From: Haliotis asinina
Taxonomy: Eukaryota > Mollusca > Gastropoda > Lepetellida > Haliotidae
Direction: 5' to 3'
NCBI RefSeq assembly: GCF_037392515.1
Contig: NW_027133924.1
Span: 29,683 to 93,682 of the forward strand
Length of the DNA stretch: 64,000 bases
Below the pieces are notes generated by a model. That model worked only from the letters and a program-made list of their open reading frames with translations. It did not search any database and was not told where the DNA came from. The translations under genes were made by a program, and so were the position numbers. This document shows, piece by piece, positions 5,336 to 55,197 of this stretch (positions within the stretch are counted from its first letter, which is position 1; every line of letters starts with the position of its first letter).

Positions 5336-5389
5336 TGCAGGCGCTAAAACGTCGGGGCGACGTAGGAAAAGCATCCTGCAGCTAGCGCC
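5336..5389. other. Compact foldback with interleaved inverted repeats
   Basis: TGCAGG (5336-5341) pairs with CCTGCA (5375-5380). GGCGCTA (5340-5346) pairs with TAGCGCC (5383-5389). Between them ACGTC (5349-5353) and GACGT (5359-5363) form a tight hairpin. The two outer stems are interleaved (first-second-first'-second'), a pseudoknot order, although they share two bases. It lies in the presumed 5' leader of the Tx1-like element. Function unknown. Confidence 0.5.
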
Positions 5390-6830: not shown

Positions 6831-8230
6831 TTAAATATGTAATTCTAATAAATGATCGGGATTGATTTTACCAAATACTGAAGTTGAAAGCCAGTACCAG
6901 GAAAAGACAGATAGCGGAAAGCGACAAAAGTCAACCTTGACACGTGTCCTAAGGAAACATAGAAAACGCAACATGATATCATTTCCATTTAATTTTCTGT
7001 GCTCAAATTTATTTGAATTCCGAATAAGCAAAATTGTATATTTTGCCAAAGTTAAAAGGTAAATGCATAATGATTTTTTATAAGAATTTGGAATTTTAGG
7101 AACCAAATTAAACCGAATGACTTCGTTAGATCTTTCCAATAAGCCAAAAGACAATTGATCTAACCACTGGAAAACGATATCCCACAAAACATCAACACAC
7201 GAGCAATAGATGAAAAGATTGTCAGAAGTTTCTATTGCTATACGACAGAGTGGACAGTTAGGAGTGATAGACATTCCCCGAGTATAAAGTGTATACCCTA
7301 AGGGGAGAGAATCATAGATGAGACGATAATTGACCGATTTCGAAAGTGGATCCACGAAGGAATTGTGTAGATTAAGCCAAACCTGCTGAAAAGGAATACG
7401 TGGATACAACGTTTCAACTTTATTTTCCACAACAGTTTGTAATAAACAAGCATAGTACTGTTTTGATGTAAACCGAAACATATCTATCAAATAATTTGAA
7501 TTGACAGCTTCAAACTGTCTTAAAGCCAATAAACACGTCTGATACAATAATGGCATCGTCTCAGAATGAGGAAATAATAGTGAAGCAAAAGTAGGACAAT
7601 AGTGACGTAAAGACATTCCTAACCAATATTTTGCAAAAAATGTCCACTTAGTTGAAGAATTATGCAAAATATTTTGAATGTGCTTTAAATAAAAAGAATA
7701 TAATTTTGATTGGATGTGAACTACACCCAAACCCCCATCCAAAATAGGTTTATAGCACACAGACCTCCGAATAGGCTTAGCAGTGGACTGTCAAATAAAA
7801 CGAAAAGTCTCCCTCTGAAAAAGGTCGACATAATGTTTTGAAAATATTGTTACAGCCCCTCGATACCAAAATTTAGACAAAGCCATGACATTGCACACAG
7901 TAGATTTGCCCAGGTGATAACACCTTAGACACACTGGCAACCGACCCGGGGCAGTGACTAGCATGGACATTCTGTCACCCAGTCTAACAATATATGGAAT
8001 ATCTTCAGCTTTTCCACTGTCAACTTGCAACTGGACAGTTCTCACACCAGTCTGAACAGGGGATCCCCCAATTAACATAGTTTCAGGAGTTATGCTCAGC
8101 ACCTTCCCAAATCTCCTAAAGTAGGAATCCAGGAATTCATTGGATACTACACCATGAATCCAGTGTACTCTCAAATCCAGTACTTCCTTGTCGTAGGGAG
8201 AAAAGTCTATTTTAATGTCTCTATAAAATA
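6831..8230 (-). pseudogene. Tx1-clade (Keno-like) LINE: ORF1 middle fused by deletion to ORF2 post-RT domain
   Basis: From 8230 downward the minus strand gives an RRM-like ORF1 segment and the start of its zinc knuckle (PVCLRCYHLG). At ~7905-7915 it changes without frame loss to a thumb/post-RT segment (STVCNVMALSKFWY, then later DGGLGVV). The end is a C-terminal zinc-like motif, CPLC-X11-N-X4-C, in which the usual His is Asn. The ORF1 C-terminus, endonuclease and RT palm are therefore deleted. One in-frame TGA lies at 7793-7791, where a Trp is expected. The stop is at 6833-6831. The upstream continuation of the open frame to 8426 is only the antisense of the inserted LINE. Residual function is very unlikely. 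Confidence 0.88.
8219..8230 (+). repeat. Target-site duplication, 5' copy
   Basis: CTCTATAAAATA lies immediately before the Nimb-like 5' end. Its partner for this element copy is 14463-14474. Confidence 0.9.
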
Positions 8231-8231
8231 A

Positions 8232-8289
8232 GCACCCATGGCGAGCCACCTCCTCGTGGTGGGTGCTGGGTAACGCTAAGTGCTCGCCA
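8232..8289 (+). ncRNA. HDV-like self-cleaving ribozyme at the LINE 5' end
   Basis: The fold is a nested double pseudoknot. P1 is GCACCCA (8232-8238) with TGGGTGC (8260-8266), 7 bp. P2 is TGGCGAG (8239-8245) with CTCGCCA (8283-8289), 7 perfect pairs. P3 is CCAC (8246-8249) with GTGG (8256-8259), closing loop CTCCTC. TGGGTAAC after P1 resembles HDV TGGGCAAC and could form P1.1 with the loop. GCTAAG (8275-8280) supplies the J4/2 strand, with C8276 as candidate catalytic cytosine. P4 is missing or minimal. Self-cleavage would occur 5' of G8232, one base after the target duplication, which is where the element starts. Such ribozymes process R2, RTE/Baggins and L1Tc-type LINE RNAs. Confidence 0.85.
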
Positions 8290-8850
8290 ACCCCCCGTGT
8301 GGATCCGGGGGCATATTTGGTCCACCAATCCGTTGGCCGTGGGTTGCGTCCCTGTGTCGGTGGAGGAGGGGATCCTGGTGGTTGAGGGTAATGGGGGCCT
8401 CGAACGACGTTCCTGTTACTCAACACACCACTTTGGCCCTGACTTCACCTAGACGGGTGGTAGAACTGGCCCGGTTCTATCAATCGGCTGGTCACGCCAT
8501 GCCCTGTGCATGGACAAACTTCCTCAGCAATTATTGTGCATGTTTGTACATTTGTGACAATGAGCGTTTGTTATTATCATACTCTATACTATAATAATTT
8601 GCCTAGAGTCCTATGCCAGAAGGCGGTGGCTCATGGGCCAATCTAGTGATGTTGACCTCCGAATGATGTATGTCTCTAATTTCTTGTCTAGGGCCGAACC
8701 AGTCTGGCATTGAATTGGTCGACAAATACAGCTATTCGTGTCATATTCGCTGGAGTATACTATCCCTGTATCCCTGGTGTCAGCATCTTGGATACCCGTT
8801 GCTAATAGACACCGTCCTTGTTGACACTCCATGGTGGGTGGGGAGCAGGG
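8290..8850 (+). other. Nimb-like LINE 5' UTR
   Basis: This is a 561-nt leader between the ribozyme motif and ORF1. It is GC-richer near its start. It contains a small open frame beginning MGASNDVPVTQ (ATG at 8390) and other short upstream ATGs, none with a recognisable domain. No further structure is called. Confidence 0.7.
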
Positions 8851-10106
8851 ATGGTGAATGATTTTCCTTTCGCCATGACTTTCCAACAAGCTGGTTCAAC
8901 TCGACATGACAAAAAACGACGTCTGGACGAACTAGATCGTCCATCCGACACAAATTCAACCACTGATTCCTGGGCTAATCGAAGCAACTGATTTTCTGCC
9001 TAACAAACTCAACCCATTTGCCGTGTCAAAAGCTATCTATGGGATCTGTGGGGAGGTGAAAAATGTCACCCGTCTCCGTAATGGTTCACTGTTAGTTGAG
9101 TGCGCACGGAGACAGCAATCTCTAAATCTTATGTCTGTTAAAACATTTGCCAATATAGAAGTTGCCGTGTCCGTGCACAAAACTCTTAATTCGTGCCGTG
9201 GTATCATACGTGACAGGGCACGCTCTCTGTATGATATGAGTGAAGAGGATATTGCAGCTGAGCTTGAAGATCAGGGGGTTACAGCAGTGAAACGTTTCAC
9301 CATTAAAAAGGATGGAATTGTAACTAAAACAAATATATATCTTCTAACATTTGCCAGACCTTCTTTACCACAGTCAATTAAGGCAGGATATCTTAACATC
9401 GGGGTGGATGTGTATTGTCCCCAATCCACTCCGGTGTTATAAATGTCAACAGTTTGGTCATGGGACTTACTCATGTCGTAATCCTGCAGTATGTTATCGC
9501 TGTGGCGATCCTCATGATGGCACAGGTTGCGAGAATGATCTCAAGTGTGTTAACTGCAAAGAGACTCATGCTGCTTCTTCAAGGTCATGCCCTATATATC
9601 AAAGGGAATCGAAGATAATGAAAATAAAATGTGAAAAAAATCTCTCTTATTTTGAAGCCAAAAAACTTTTCACCACTCAGTCCTCAACCCCATCAAATAT
9701 AACATATTCTGCTGCAGTTACCCGTTCTGTAGCAATGTCCTCAGCTGCATGTCAAACTGACTTGACCTGGGTCAAATCAGAAAAATCTGTGTTTTCATCT
9801 AACAAACCTGCTTCTGAACCGAAAGAATCTACTGCCCCAGTCACTCAAATAACGTCTGAGTCTCAGACAGAAATTCAGTCTGAGTCATCACAATTGACTG
9901 CTTCGCCACTAGCCACATCACAACCACCCACTATTCCAGTGAAAAAGCAGAAAGGTAAAAAATTACATATGACAGAAACACATGTTGTTCCTCTACAAAA
10001 TACTTTTGGGCCTCTAGACATGGAGGTGACCCCATACTCACAGGACGAGCGGAGGTGCTTACCCCCGTCACGTTCTCGCGAAAGATCGCCCATTGAGCCA
10101 CCATGA
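8851..10106 (+). pseudogene. Nimb-like LINE ORF1 (zinc-knuckle RNA-binding protein), frameshifted
   Basis: ORF1 proteins of I-group LINEs bind the element RNA. The first in-frame ATG is 8851 (GGGATGG context); an alternative is 8875. After a basic, Asp/Ser/Thr-rich N-terminus the frame shifts near 8965-8975. It continues through a central domain that includes SKAIYGICGEVKNVTRLRNG. It shifts again at ~9408-9416 just before three zinc knuckles (first CYKC at 9435). The Ser/Thr/Gln-rich tail ends in SRSRERSP. The stop TGA (10104-10106) overlaps the ORF2 ATG (10103) as ATGA. Both frameshifts occur in every unit. Confidence 0.92.
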
Positions 10107-13100
10107 CTCAGCTGGCCAATATAATTCAATGGAACTGCAGAGGGATTAAAAATAACTTTAACGAGTTACAGTTACTCGTACAAGATCATCAACCGTCGGC
10201 ATTCTGTATCCAAGAGACATATCTTAAAGATACAGATAATTTTAAATTGAGACAGTATGATGCTTACCATTCTTTTTCTCCTCAGAGGGATCGTGCAACT
10301 GGAGGAGCTTCTATTTTAGTACATCACAACGTCATCCATAGCCCTGTCGCTCTAAATACACAATTGCAAACTGTAGCTGTTCGTATTACTTTGCACATGG
10401 CGCTGACATTGTGCAGTTTGTACATACCGCCCTCTTCAAATATTCACAAATCAGATCTTCAAAATTTATACGATCAACTCCCGAAGCCATGTTTAATCAC
10501 GGGCGATCTTAACGGACACAACCCACTTTGGGGAAGTGTCAACACAAATAGGAAGGGTAAATCATCGAGGATTTCATATCTGATAATAACTTATGTATTT
10601 TCAATGACGATTCAGCTACTTACCTACATCCAGCTACGGGAACATATTCTTCCCTGGATATATCATTTGCCGACTCAAATTTGTGTAATGAATTCGAATG
10701 GGAGGTGCATGATGACCTGTGTGGGAGTGATCACTTCCCAACTATTCTTAAAGGCATTATCCCTGGGGATGATCCACCCTTATCCAGACGGAACTTCAAG
10801 AAGGCTGACTGGTCCTTATATAAAACACTTTGTAGAGGTGCATGATGACCTGTGTGGGAGTGATCACTTCCCAACTATTCTTAAAGGCATTATCCCTGGG
10901 GATGATCCACCCTTATCCAGACGGAACTTCAAGAAGGCTGACTGGTCCTTATATAAAACACTTTGTATTGATCATTTAAAACCTGATGTTTTTGTAAACA
11001 GCGAAGATCCTATACAGCTGTTTTCAGATATAATCAATAACATTGCTGACCAAACTATCCCCAAGTCCTCTGCAATTCCACATGTTCGCAAACCATGGTT
11101 TACTAATGACTGTTAACAGGCCAGAAAGAGTAGGAGGAAAGCGGAAAAGTATTTTCGCCGCCACCCTACAGTACATAATTTAGATAGAGTAAAAATTTTA
11201 AATGCCAAGGCTCGACGCACTTTTAAACAGAGTAAACGCCTGTCTTTGAGGAACTATGTCTCCAAAATTAATTCCCGTACACCCATGTCTAAGGTGTGGA
11301 ATATGATACAAAGAATTACGGGCAAAGGTTCCAGATCTACTGTTCATCATCTGAAGGATGGTGACCGGGTATTAACTGATAAATCTGATATTGCCAACAA
11401 GCTTGGTGAAACTCTCGCCAAACATTCTTCTTCGTCCAATTACGTACCTGAATTTAAACACTACCAGAAACAGCAGGAGAAGAAGAGAATAAATTTTACC
11501 TCAGACAATGGCGAAGACTATAATGAATTATTTTCATTACATGAGCTACACACTGCCCTTGAGCAAGCTCATGATACAGCGTCAGGAGTTGACTATATTC
11601 ACTATCAGCTCCTGAAACATTTGCCCAAATCATGTTTGGAAACAATGCTCAATATTTTTGATTCAATATGGACTTAGGGAAAATTCCCGTCTTCTTGGCG
11701 TAATGCTATTGTAGATCCTATTCCAAAACCTGGCCGGGATCATACTGATCCGTCGAATTACAGACCAAGTTCTTAAACGAGTTGTGTCTGTAAAACCATG
11801 GAGCGTATGGTAAACAGTCGATTAACATGGTTTCTTGAAACTAACAACCTTATCACAAATATTCAGTGTGGTTTCAGGAAGAATCGTAGTACCATTGATC
11901 ATTTGGTACGTTTAGAATCCTTTGTAAAAAATGCATTTATCAATAAGCAACATGCTGTACCGATCTTTTTTTGATCTCGAGAAAGCATACGATACCACCT
12001 GGAAGCATGGCATTTTAAAGGATTTACATGGTTTCGGTTTAAGGGGTCGTTTACCTCTGTTTATATCGCAATTTTTACAAGGCAGGCAATTTCAAGTCCG
12101 AGTAGGTTCTACCCTGTCTGATCATTACAATCAGCATCAGGGTGTTCCGCAAGGCAGCATTTTGTCTGTGACCTTATTTAGTATCAAGATCAACAGTTTA
12201 TCCAAGGTTTTAAACGATTCAATAGATGGATCACTTTTCGTGGATGATTTTAATATTTCCTGTCGCGGTAAGAATATGCATACTATTGAACGGCAACTGC
12301 AATTATGTTTAAACAAAATAAATAAATGGTGTCTTGAGAATGGTTTTAAATTTTCTAAGACAAAAACTAATTGCTTCCATTTCTGCCGTAAGTATAAACC
12401 ACATAAGGACCCAGAATTATTTTTAAATGGCACTCCTATCAAAGTCGTTAAGGAGGCCAAGTTCTTAGGTTTGATTTTCGACTCTCATTTAACTTTTCTT
12501 CCGCATATCAAATACTTGAAAACTAAATGCCTGAAGGCACTTGATCTATTGAAAGTTGTGTCAAATTCAAAATGGGGAGGGGATCAAGCTACTCTCCTGC
12601 ACCTATACCGTGCACTTGTCCGTTCGAAGCTTGATTATGGCTCCATCATTTATGGTGGAGCCTGTAAAAGCAATCTAAAACTCCTTGATTCTATCCACCA
12701 CCAAGGTCTGAGACTTTGTCTTTGGTCGTTCCGAACTTCTCCTATTGACAGTCTCTATGTCGAAGCCGATGAACCATCTCTTACACAGCGCCGTATCAAA
12801 TTAGCTCTACAATATATTACAAAACTATACTCTAACGAATCCAACCCTGCTTTTAACTGTGTTTTCGATCCTCTTTATGAGCATTTATACATCAAAAAGT
12901 CTTCTCTTGTTCCACCTTTTGGGCACAGAATTAAACCATTCATTTCTGCTGCCGGCATTGAGCTGAAAAGTATAGCGCCTTCTCGTCTTCTCCTCCTTGG
13001 CAATTAGTGAGGCCACAAGTTGACCTCACATTAACAAAGTTTAAAAAATCAGACACAAACGAATTACAATATAAACAAGAGTTTATGCAATTAAAAAATA

Positions 13101-13900
13101 ATTATAGTACATACAAATCCTTATTTACAGATGGTTCCAAGGATGGTTGCACAGTTGCTTGTGCCACTGTCATTGGATCCAGAACAATATCTTCTCGATT
13201 ACCTGATAACAGCTCCATTTTCACTGCAGAAGCTAACGCAATATTAACGGCTCTTCAATATATTCAAAGACATCCTAATCATGTACAGTATATAATTTTT
13301 TCTGATTCTCTTTCTTGCCTTCAGGCTATTAAAAATTTGTCTTGTAAACATCCACTTTTAATTGACATAATTGAATTGTATAATGATCTTACAACTGGCA
13401 GTGCGACATCTTTTGTTGGTTACCCAGCCATGTCGGTATTTCTGGGAATGCAATGGCCGATCTTGCTGCTAAGGCTGCACTCAACAAATCTGTGACACCA
13501 CGACTTATTCCATGCAGTGACTATAAAGCTAGCATTAGAACTTACATTCGTGATCTGATGCAAAAGAAGTGGGACACCCAAGTTGGAATAAATAAATTAC
13601 ATGCCATAAAACCTTATATTGGTTACACTCACTTGGGCTGTCAGTCCAGATTTGAAGAGGTCGCATTGGCCATACGCGTTACACCCACAGTTATTTACTA
13701 AAAGGTGATGATCCTCCGTTTTGTATCCCTTGTGATGAGAGAACCACGGTCAAGCATATCCTGCTTGACTGTTGAATTCTCCATCATAAGGGATAACTAT
13801 ATATTTCAATGTCAAAACAATGAAGGATCTTTTAAGCACAGTTAGTACTCATTTAATTCTTGGATTTTTAAAAGAAATTGATTTTCTTATTGAATTGTAA
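10103..13900 (+). pseudogene. Nimb-like LINE ORF2, unit 2 copy, with endonuclease duplication
   Basis: Same domains and shared lesions as the copy at 749. The 133-bp duplication (a 3n+1 length) brings the frame open since the start codon back into the correct frame, so one frame runs 337 codons (10103-11116). It contains the N-terminal endonuclease motifs and, after ~90 out-of-frame residues, the SDH motif. It still stops at the shared TAA (11114-11116). The RNase H C-run is intact here, but the frame is still shifted by an apparent earlier one-base loss in TTTTGTTGG. Confidence 0.92.
10702..10967 (+). repeat. 133-bp direct tandem duplication inside ORF2 endonuclease
   Basis: Two exact copies, 10702-10834 and 10835-10967, start GAGGTGCATGATGACC and end CACTTTGTA. 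No microhomology is seen at the junction. It occurs in no other unit. Confidence 0.97.
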
Positions 13901-14465
13901 TTGATATGTTCTGTAAATAGTTGTATTTTAATGATTGGTAGTTTAAATTAGTAACTTAGATTGTTAGTGGCTGTACCCTCAACGGGGGTTGAAGTATTGT
14001 AAAATTATTGTCCTCCTGAGAGGGTACGTAAGTCCAATACTCTCATAGTCAATTTAAATCTACTACTAGTTTTTAATCGTAGAATATTTGTTGTTTTTAA
14101 GTCATGGCTAAATTTCAGGATAATCGCCAATAGCTGAAGGGGTGGTGTAAATCCAGCTAGGTTTCATGCAGGTAGCAGAAGTAATGTAAGTCCCCATGGA
14201 CCTTAGTATGGTGATCTACTTCAGTTGTTGGCGATCTATAGCCCCGGTTTTATGTTGTATTGTCTTCTTTAAATCCAATGTTTTAACTTTCAATGCTAGT
14301 TTTATGTTCTGTGATACTCTAGTGTTTTTACTGTCCTTCGCTGACAGGTTTTACTTTTTCTCTTTTCTCATCCTAACATTACTATAACTTATTTTGTTCT
14401 CGTCACGATATGGCTGCAATATTGCCGATGTGACGTTAAATGTTAACTCACTCACTCACTCACTC
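13901..14465 (+). other. Nimb-like LINE 3' UTR and (ACTC)5 tail, unit 2
   Basis: No coding content. The terminal hairpin is at 14402-14434 and the tail at 14446-14465. Confidence 0.85.
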
Positions 14466-14474
14466 TATAAAATA
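14463..14474 (+). repeat. Target-site duplication, 3' copy, unit 2
   Basis: CTCTATAAAATA, pairing with 8219-8230. Confidence 0.9.
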
Positions 14475-17718: not shown

Positions 17719-17719
17719 A

Positions 17720-17777
17720 GCACCCATGGCGAGCCACCTCCTCGTGGTGGGTGCTGGGTAACGCTAAGTGCTCGCCA
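17720..17777 (+). ncRNA. HDV-like ribozyme, unit 2
   Basis: Same bases as at 8232-8289; P2 closes with CTCGCCA at 17771-17777. Confidence 0.85.
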
Positions 17778-27073: not shown

Positions 27074-27074
27074 A

Positions 27075-27132
27075 GCACCCATGGCGAGCCACCTCCTCGT
27101 GGTGGGTGCTGGGTAACGCTAAGTGCTCGCCA
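27075..27132 (+). ncRNA. HDV-like ribozyme, unit 3
   Basis: All paired segments present and unchanged. Confidence 0.85.
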
Positions 27133-36428: not shown

Positions 36429-36429
36429 A

Positions 36430-36487
36430 GCACCCATGGCGAGCCACCTCCTCGTGGTGGGTGCTGGGTAACGCTAAGTGCTCGCCA
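36430..36487 (+). ncRNA. HDV-like ribozyme, unit 4
   Basis: All paired segments unchanged. Confidence 0.85.
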
Positions 36488-45783: not shown

Positions 45784-45784
45784 A

Positions 45785-45842
45785 GCACCCATGGCGAGCC
45801 ACCTCCTCGTGGTGGGTGCTGGGTAACGCTAAGTGCTCGCCA
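45785..45842 (+). ncRNA. HDV-like ribozyme, unit 5
   Basis: All paired segments unchanged. Confidence 0.85.
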
Positions 45843-55138: not shown

Positions 55139-55139
55139 A

Positions 55140-55197
55140 GCACCCATGGCGAGCCACCTCCTCGTGGTGGGTGCTGGGTAACGCTAAGTGCTCGCCA
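55140..55197 (+). ncRNA. HDV-like ribozyme, unit 6
   Basis: All paired segments unchanged. Confidence 0.85.

Follow-up and report, generated by a model that had tools for sequence, protein, structure and literature searches.

A LINE in an array of U2 snRNA genes

The 64,000 nucleotides of Haliotis asinina DNA that we analysed (the window) form a tandem array of units of about 9,355 bp that are 99.8–100% identical to each other, and seven U2 snRNA genes lie in the array on the minus strand. A LINE (8231..14465, the end being approximate) lies on the plus strand and is inserted in another LINE-like frame (zf-RVT) that is antisense to it. This LINE copy has a 5' UTR, ORF1, ORF2 (endonuclease, reverse transcriptase, and RNase H), and an ACTC tail, but its frames are broken. 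The remains of ORF1 (9023..10106) fall in two frames (9023–9442 and 9351–10106), and ORF2 is recognizable as an endonuclease part (10103..11116; PF03372 and PF14529), a reverse transcriptase part (11931..13007; PF00078), and an RNase H part (13007..13495; PF00075), all on the plus strand. The RNase H match scores 22.5 bits, which is below the cut-off of 25.8. In two relatives, L001 and L025, PF00075 is over the cut-off (47.6 and 40.7 bits), and the endonuclease and the reverse transcriptase are above their Pfam cut-offs as well. As judged by its ORF2 architecture, the LINE is of the endonuclease–reverse transcriptase–RNase H type, as expected for the I-group clade Nimb, the candidate clade that was originally suggested. 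Besides its frameshifts, the copy carries a perfect 133-bp tandem duplication inside ORF2 (10702–10967); no other tandem repeats of this type were reported within the window.

The insertion is bounded by a target-site duplication, CTCTATAAAATA, with one copy at 8219..8230 and the other at 14463..14474 (both plus strand), behind the (ACTC)n tail. The size of the duplication is 9–12 bases, as the initial CTC of CTCTATAAAATA may match the ACTC tail by chance. If the flanks are joined, the host frame is open for about 50 codons ahead of the junction and on through it. However, the interrupted frame is also open across the insertion site (ORF 7791–8426), so the joined frame adds little and the boundary rests on the duplication.

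A P4-less HDV-like fold at the 5' end of the LINE

The first 59 nt of the LINE (8231..8289, plus strand) are predicted to be an HDV-like ribozyme that lacks P4, based on alignment to Rfam models, pairing in register, and comparison to viral sequences. The strands occur in the order P1, P2, P3, P3', P1', P2', which by sequence is a nested double pseudoknot, and all three helices are fully Watson-Crick in register. P1 pairs AGCACCC (8231..8237) with GGGTGCT (8261..8267; 7/7 pairs). After J1/2 (AT, 8238–8239), P2 pairs GGCGAGC (8240..8246) with GCTCGCC (8282..8288; 7/7 pairs), and an eighth pair is possible between 8239 and 8289. P3 (ACC at 8248–8250 with GGT at 8258–8260; 3/3 pairs) flanks L3, which is TCCTCGT (8251–8257; UCCUCGU in the RNA). 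Finally, J1.1/4 (GGGTAAC, 8268..8274) runs straight into J4/2 (GCTAAGT, 8275..8281), which is followed by the 3' strand of P2. The original prediction had seven base pairs in P1 and seven perfect ones in P2, which is what we found, and four in P3, where the Rfam register leaves three. Its P4, described as absent or minimal, is absent: GGGUAAC directly precedes GCUAAGU.

The core letters are also those of an HDV-like ribozyme. In such ribozymes, L3 carries a U and a G, and two of its C can form P1.1 with two G in J1.1/4. Both segments of the window (UCCUCGU and GGGUAAC) align to the consensus of RF00094 and RF02682. The presumed catalytic cytosine, C8276, lies in GCUAAG just before the 3' strand of P2, and the Rfam register bears out the earlier assignment of GCTAAG as J4/2 with C8276 as the catalytic base. 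An alternative loop, CTCCTC closed by a four-pair P3, had been proposed, but it would pair G8256, and the G at this place in HDV-like ribozymes is engaged in a reverse wobble with another L3 base, a U (PMC3774820). We therefore do not retain that loop.

In the alignments to both Rfam HDV models (RF02682 and RF00094), the first base of P1 is A8231, which places the predicted cut between 8230 and 8231. This is the edge of the 5' copy of CTCTATAAAATA. The cut had been placed one base past the duplication, which is a register one base off; with the corrected register, the claim that the fold sits at the exact 5' end of the LINE holds, as the first base of the ribozyme adjoins the last base of the duplication. 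Cleavage itself is a prediction.

Five more copies of the ribozyme lie in the other array units (17719..17777, in the next unit, and 27074..27132, 36429..36487, 45784..45842, and 55139..55197, all on the plus strand). The six copies are identical over the stretch that corresponds to 8201–8330. As they belong to one tandem array, they are not independent, and they provide no covariation within the LINE family.

Scores against the Rfam models are below the curated thresholds. RF02682 (HDV-F-prausnitzii) matches 8231–8289 over the whole model with 26.9 bits (E = 0.0027 for 251 bases; gathering score 44), and RF00094 matches with 24.7 bits (gathering score 50). When an array unit of 9.5 kb was searched at E ≤ 1, only U2 and 8231–8289 matched (the latter with E = 0.1, to RF02682). 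Of 204 prokaryote genomes, 16 had RF02682 matches at E ≤ 0.5 (17 in total), all of them under the cut-off, and the best score was 23.1 bits (with stricter filters), as compared to 26.9 bits for 8231–8289. We attribute the sub-threshold scores to a limit of the models, because P2 is unscored in both of them and because a viral ribozyme within a tRNA cluster (L042, discussed below) reaches only 29.3 bits. Because the models leave P2 out of the score, the Watson-Crick P2 of 8231–8289 is separate support for the fold.

Could the sequence form just an imperfect hairpin, such as a stem of the 5' UTR, with a pseudoknot that is coincidental? The minimum free energy (MFE) fold is indeed a nested one, with a long hairpin (8231–8267) that pairs the 5' strand of P2 with L3 and a weak 3' stem (−28.6 kcal/mol, z = −2.43). 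The summed energy of P1, P3, and P2, with pseudoknot terms left out, is slightly worse (−27.3 kcal/mol). However, a hairpin leaves the 7–8 bp partner of P2 (8282–8289), GGGTAAC, GCTAAG, and the UCCUCGU of L3 unexplained. It also requires P1 and P2 to lie beside the core by chance. We placed random flanks with the region's composition around the fixed core (200,000 trials) and asked for 7/7 pairs in P1, with G-U allowed, within 30 nt and for seven Watson-Crick pairs in P2. P1 appeared in 4.1% of the trials, P2 in 0.86%, and both in 0.034% (a chance of 0.00034). When the 59-mer was shuffled with its composition kept, seven pairs in both P1 and P2 in this register were retained in 1 of 1,000,000 shuffles. 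Given these results and the viral sequences described in the next section, we consider a mere hairpin to be very improbable.

Viral sequences with the same core

We searched viral contigs with a strict pattern that fixed the P3/L3 letters of the window, GGGYAAC, and GCTAAG and left P1 and P2 free. As the core letters of the patterns come from the window, independent evidence is limited to the pairing and to the letters left unfixed. Two contigs matched, and both of them (2/2) pair P1 and P2 in register. A relaxed pattern gave 10 contigs, including these two, and 8 of the 10 have 7/7 pairs in P1, 5–9 bp in P2 in register, and no P4, which also argues against the hairpin. These eight represent six distinct ribozymes, as L046 and L049 duplicate L045. 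The other two (L043 and L047) were rejected as ribozymes, with only 5/7 pairs in P1 and no fold, and were excluded from the swap test, the MAFFT alignment, and the energy comparison.

The swap test covered the window and the six viral sequences. In each case, the P1 strand forms 7/7 pairs with its natural partner and 2–5/7 with partners from the other sequences, and the viral P1 strands have just 2–3 of 7 letters in common with that of the window. A decoy pattern in which the catalytic C was replaced gave four viral matches, and three of these lack a full P1 (5, 5, and 6 of 7 pairs). The fourth, L052, has 7/7 pairs in P1 and 5 bp in P2, and it still carries GCTAA; it is not a decoy, so we took it as the eighth sequence in the alignment and in the energy comparison. 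MAFFT displaced the P1 columns when it aligned the eight ribozymes, so we checked the pairing with a script and did not build a covariance model.

The predicted P4-less ribozymes of the viral contigs (L041:80-133, L042:4873-4932, and L044:5334-5389, and also those in L045, L048, L050, and L052) resemble the theta ribozymes of phages. The one in L044 begins at base 5389, at the 3' end of a tRNA-His gene predicted by ARAGORN, and the one in L042 lies inside a tRNA cluster, as is typical of theta ribozymes (PMC10879173); no tRNA was found in the available stretches of the other five of the seven contigs (L041, L045, L048, L050, and L052). In Rfam searches of two viral contigs, L042 scored 29.3 bits (gathering score 44), and L041 was not listed at E ≤ 0.1.

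The viral sequences also bear on another explanation, which is that the window's sequence is an HDV-like ribozyme by descent but is inactive in this copy. The LINE that carries it is dead, with frameshifted ORFs and the 133-bp duplication. Also, the window has A at position 1 (A8231), where 7/7 viral sequences have G, and its competing hairpin, which could trap the RNA, is nearly equal in energy to the HDV sum. (For all seven viral ribozymes, the helices of the HDV fold add up to an energy as good as or better than that of the nested MFE structure.) On the other hand, no pair and no core letter has been lost, P1 still has 7 bp thanks to its A-U pair, and at −14.5 kcal/mol, the P2 of the window is the strongest among the eight compared ribozymes. 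We think that an inactive copy is rather unlikely, but it is the most serious of the alternatives.

Relatives of the LINE

Three contigs in prokaryote genomes contain a related LINE, and we take these to be host contamination. Two of the three nearest relatives sit in the assembly of a Solemya gill symbiont. Viral contigs, which we searched by reverse transcriptase, by alignments of reverse transcriptase and of ORF1, and by a 5'-UTR pattern, contained no relatives of the LINE. Four of the relatives (L001, L002, L003, and L010) stop short of the 5' end, as judged by match coordinates in the case of L010.

Searches with ORF1 yielded little more. Within the order of G002, 4 of 210 genomes matched (G002 itself, G016, and G065 and G173, which contain LINEs of other types). 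Within the order of G001, none of 398 genomes matched (a set without a positive control), and within the class of G002, the only match in 369 genomes was G002 itself. When G001 and G002 were searched with a 5'-UTR pattern that allowed mismatches, the sole exact match was the known L003 contig and the others were at the level of controls. Similarly, a search for the 5' region of L025 in G016, G002, and G001 found only L025 itself and the L003 contig.

L025 has intact ORF1 and ORF2 and is the only relative with a readable 5' region. It matches the 5' UTR of the window from about position 8326 onward and has a different segment upstream. We found no HDV-like fold in its 5' region, which has no HDV match in Rfam. 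In the ribozyme's place (L025:4899-4990), there is a segment that is closed by GTTGCCCCC/GGGGGCAAC and contains the GTCGTAAGAGGCGAC hairpin, and this module had no Rfam match even at E ≤ 10. A loosened descriptor does fit it in 1440 ways, but the loops are unlike the L3 of HDV, so we rejected it as HDV-like. We also sought a target-site duplication around L025 and did not find one. L025 (G016:C4:514000-528000) and a bacterial sirohaem synthase gene lie some 3 kb apart on a contig of 537,613 bp in a prokaryote assembly; perhaps the contig is chimeric or is host DNA.

Another structured element, a hairpin in the 5' UTR, is common to three LINEs (window 8449–8489, L003:53-140, and L025:5090-5180). 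Its stem letters change in pairs (GUAGAAC/GUUCUAU, GUCCAAUC/GAUUGGAU, and GUCCGGG/CCCGGAU), and it sits within constant flanks (CUAGACGGG...CAAUCGGCU).

The searches of these genomes and contigs did not find a second independent insertion of the LINE family with the ribozyme, one that would show the ribozyme travelling along with the LINE. The structure could then be part of the host DNA into which the LINE inserted, or of some other RNA. This seems extremely unlikely because the structure lies inside the target-site duplications, with its first base adjoining the 5' one.

Proposed role of the predicted ribozyme

The topology, the core letters, the element boundary, and the core-matching viral sequences all point the same way, and an HDV-like ribozyme at the exact 5' end of the LINE is the best reading of the locus. 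Going by these features of the sequence, we are quite confident that the first 59 nt of this endonuclease/reverse transcriptase/RNase H LINE (8231–8289) are a self-cleaving HDV-like ribozyme without P4.

The most likely role of the ribozyme, by analogy to R2, R4/Dong, L1Tc, and RTE, is to release the RNA of the LINE from a host transcript that starts upstream and to set the first base of new copies. We propose that the LINE would be transcribed by read-through from an upstream host promoter and that the nested double pseudoknot of P1, P2, and P3 would assemble while the transcript emerges from the polymerase. In HDV cleavage, the catalytic C helps a 2'-OH to attack the adjacent phosphate. Here, C8276 would assist the attack by the 2'-OH of A8230 on the phosphate before A8231, and cleavage would free the element RNA with a 5'-OH at its first base. 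If the freed RNA then serves for translation and, at a new site, for reverse transcription, every full-length copy would begin with the ribozyme.

Comparison with known ribozymes

The ribozymes of R2, R4/Dong, L1Tc/ingi, RTE, and Baggins have the same topology as that of the window, and they also lie at the 5' end of a LINE and cut at or near its boundary. For R4/Dong, L1Tc, and RTE, the cut is described as coinciding with the 5' junction, and R2 RNA as cutting itself out of the 28S cotranscript (PMC3774820). The similarity to R2 extends to the letters: positions 8249–8259 (P3/L3) are identical to CCUCCUCGUGG, which PMC5035012 names as R2Dm's most conserved sequence and which is also present in R2-1_TG. 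Some R2 ribozymes likewise have no room for P4, with too few nucleotides there to form a structure (PMC3774820).

The window's LINE differs from R2, R4, and RTE in combining an endonuclease of the Exo_endo_phos type with RNase H, which is not the ORF architecture of those elements. RNase H is no point of difference from L1Tc: the title of a cited work credits that element with RNase H activity. As L1Tc has both a ribozyme and RNase H, RNase-H LINEs are not new hosts. The window's ribozyme has A at position 1. Across the open-licence literature, ribozyme, Nimb, retrotransposon, and clade occurred together in no paper, and none of the open-licence titles and abstracts listed describes an HDV-like ribozyme in a Nimb LINE or in a mollusc LINE other than R2, which is weak evidence of absence.

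P4 is also absent from theta ribozymes and from minimal drz ribozymes (drz-Mtgn), and P4-less HDV-like ribozymes have been described in phages and metagenomes (PMC10879173). Thus, the variant is very compact, as originally proposed, but together with the R2 ribozymes that cannot form P4 (PMC3774820), these examples show that the P4-less form is not novel. Theta ribozymes are carried by phages, often at the 3' ends of tRNAs (PMC10879173), whereas the window's ribozyme starts an animal LINE. It has the P4-less fold in common with them and does not have their G at the cut site, their phage genome, or their frequent tRNA neighbour, so we do not class it as a theta ribozyme, although it should work alike. 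(The eukaryotic search in the theta study is described as covering human, mouse, and protists; PMC10879173.) The viral L041 and L042 have the P3/L3 ACCUCCUCGUGGU and the GGGUAAC-GCUAAG of the window, most of these letters being fixed by the search pattern. The best match in Rfam, the HDV-F-prausnitzii model (RF02682), has 15 positions between J1.1/4 and J4/2 where the window has 1.

A broader scenario, which we offer tentatively and which is less likely than not to be right in full, is that a theta-type HDV ribozyme without P4 became the 5' end of one animal lineage of RNase-H LINEs. L025, with its different structured module, would then reflect the exchange of 5' RNA devices between LINE lineages, and the core would have moved between phages and animals or else reached the same letters in both by convergence. 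PMC3774820 describes R2 ribozymes as converging on the HDV core letters, and the similar P4-less core in viral contigs and in an animal LINE gives the question of convergence one more case.

As both the window's copy and L042 fall below the Rfam thresholds and the models are blind to P2, more ribozymes at the 5' ends of LINEs may have been overlooked. If our interpretation is correct, another animal LINE lineage joins those with HDV-like 5' processing, with a very small ribozyme (59 nt) for which the element boundary shows where the cut is expected. Given that HDV-like ribozymes of LINEs are established and that P4-less forms are known, the LINE very probably represents a further host for a known device.
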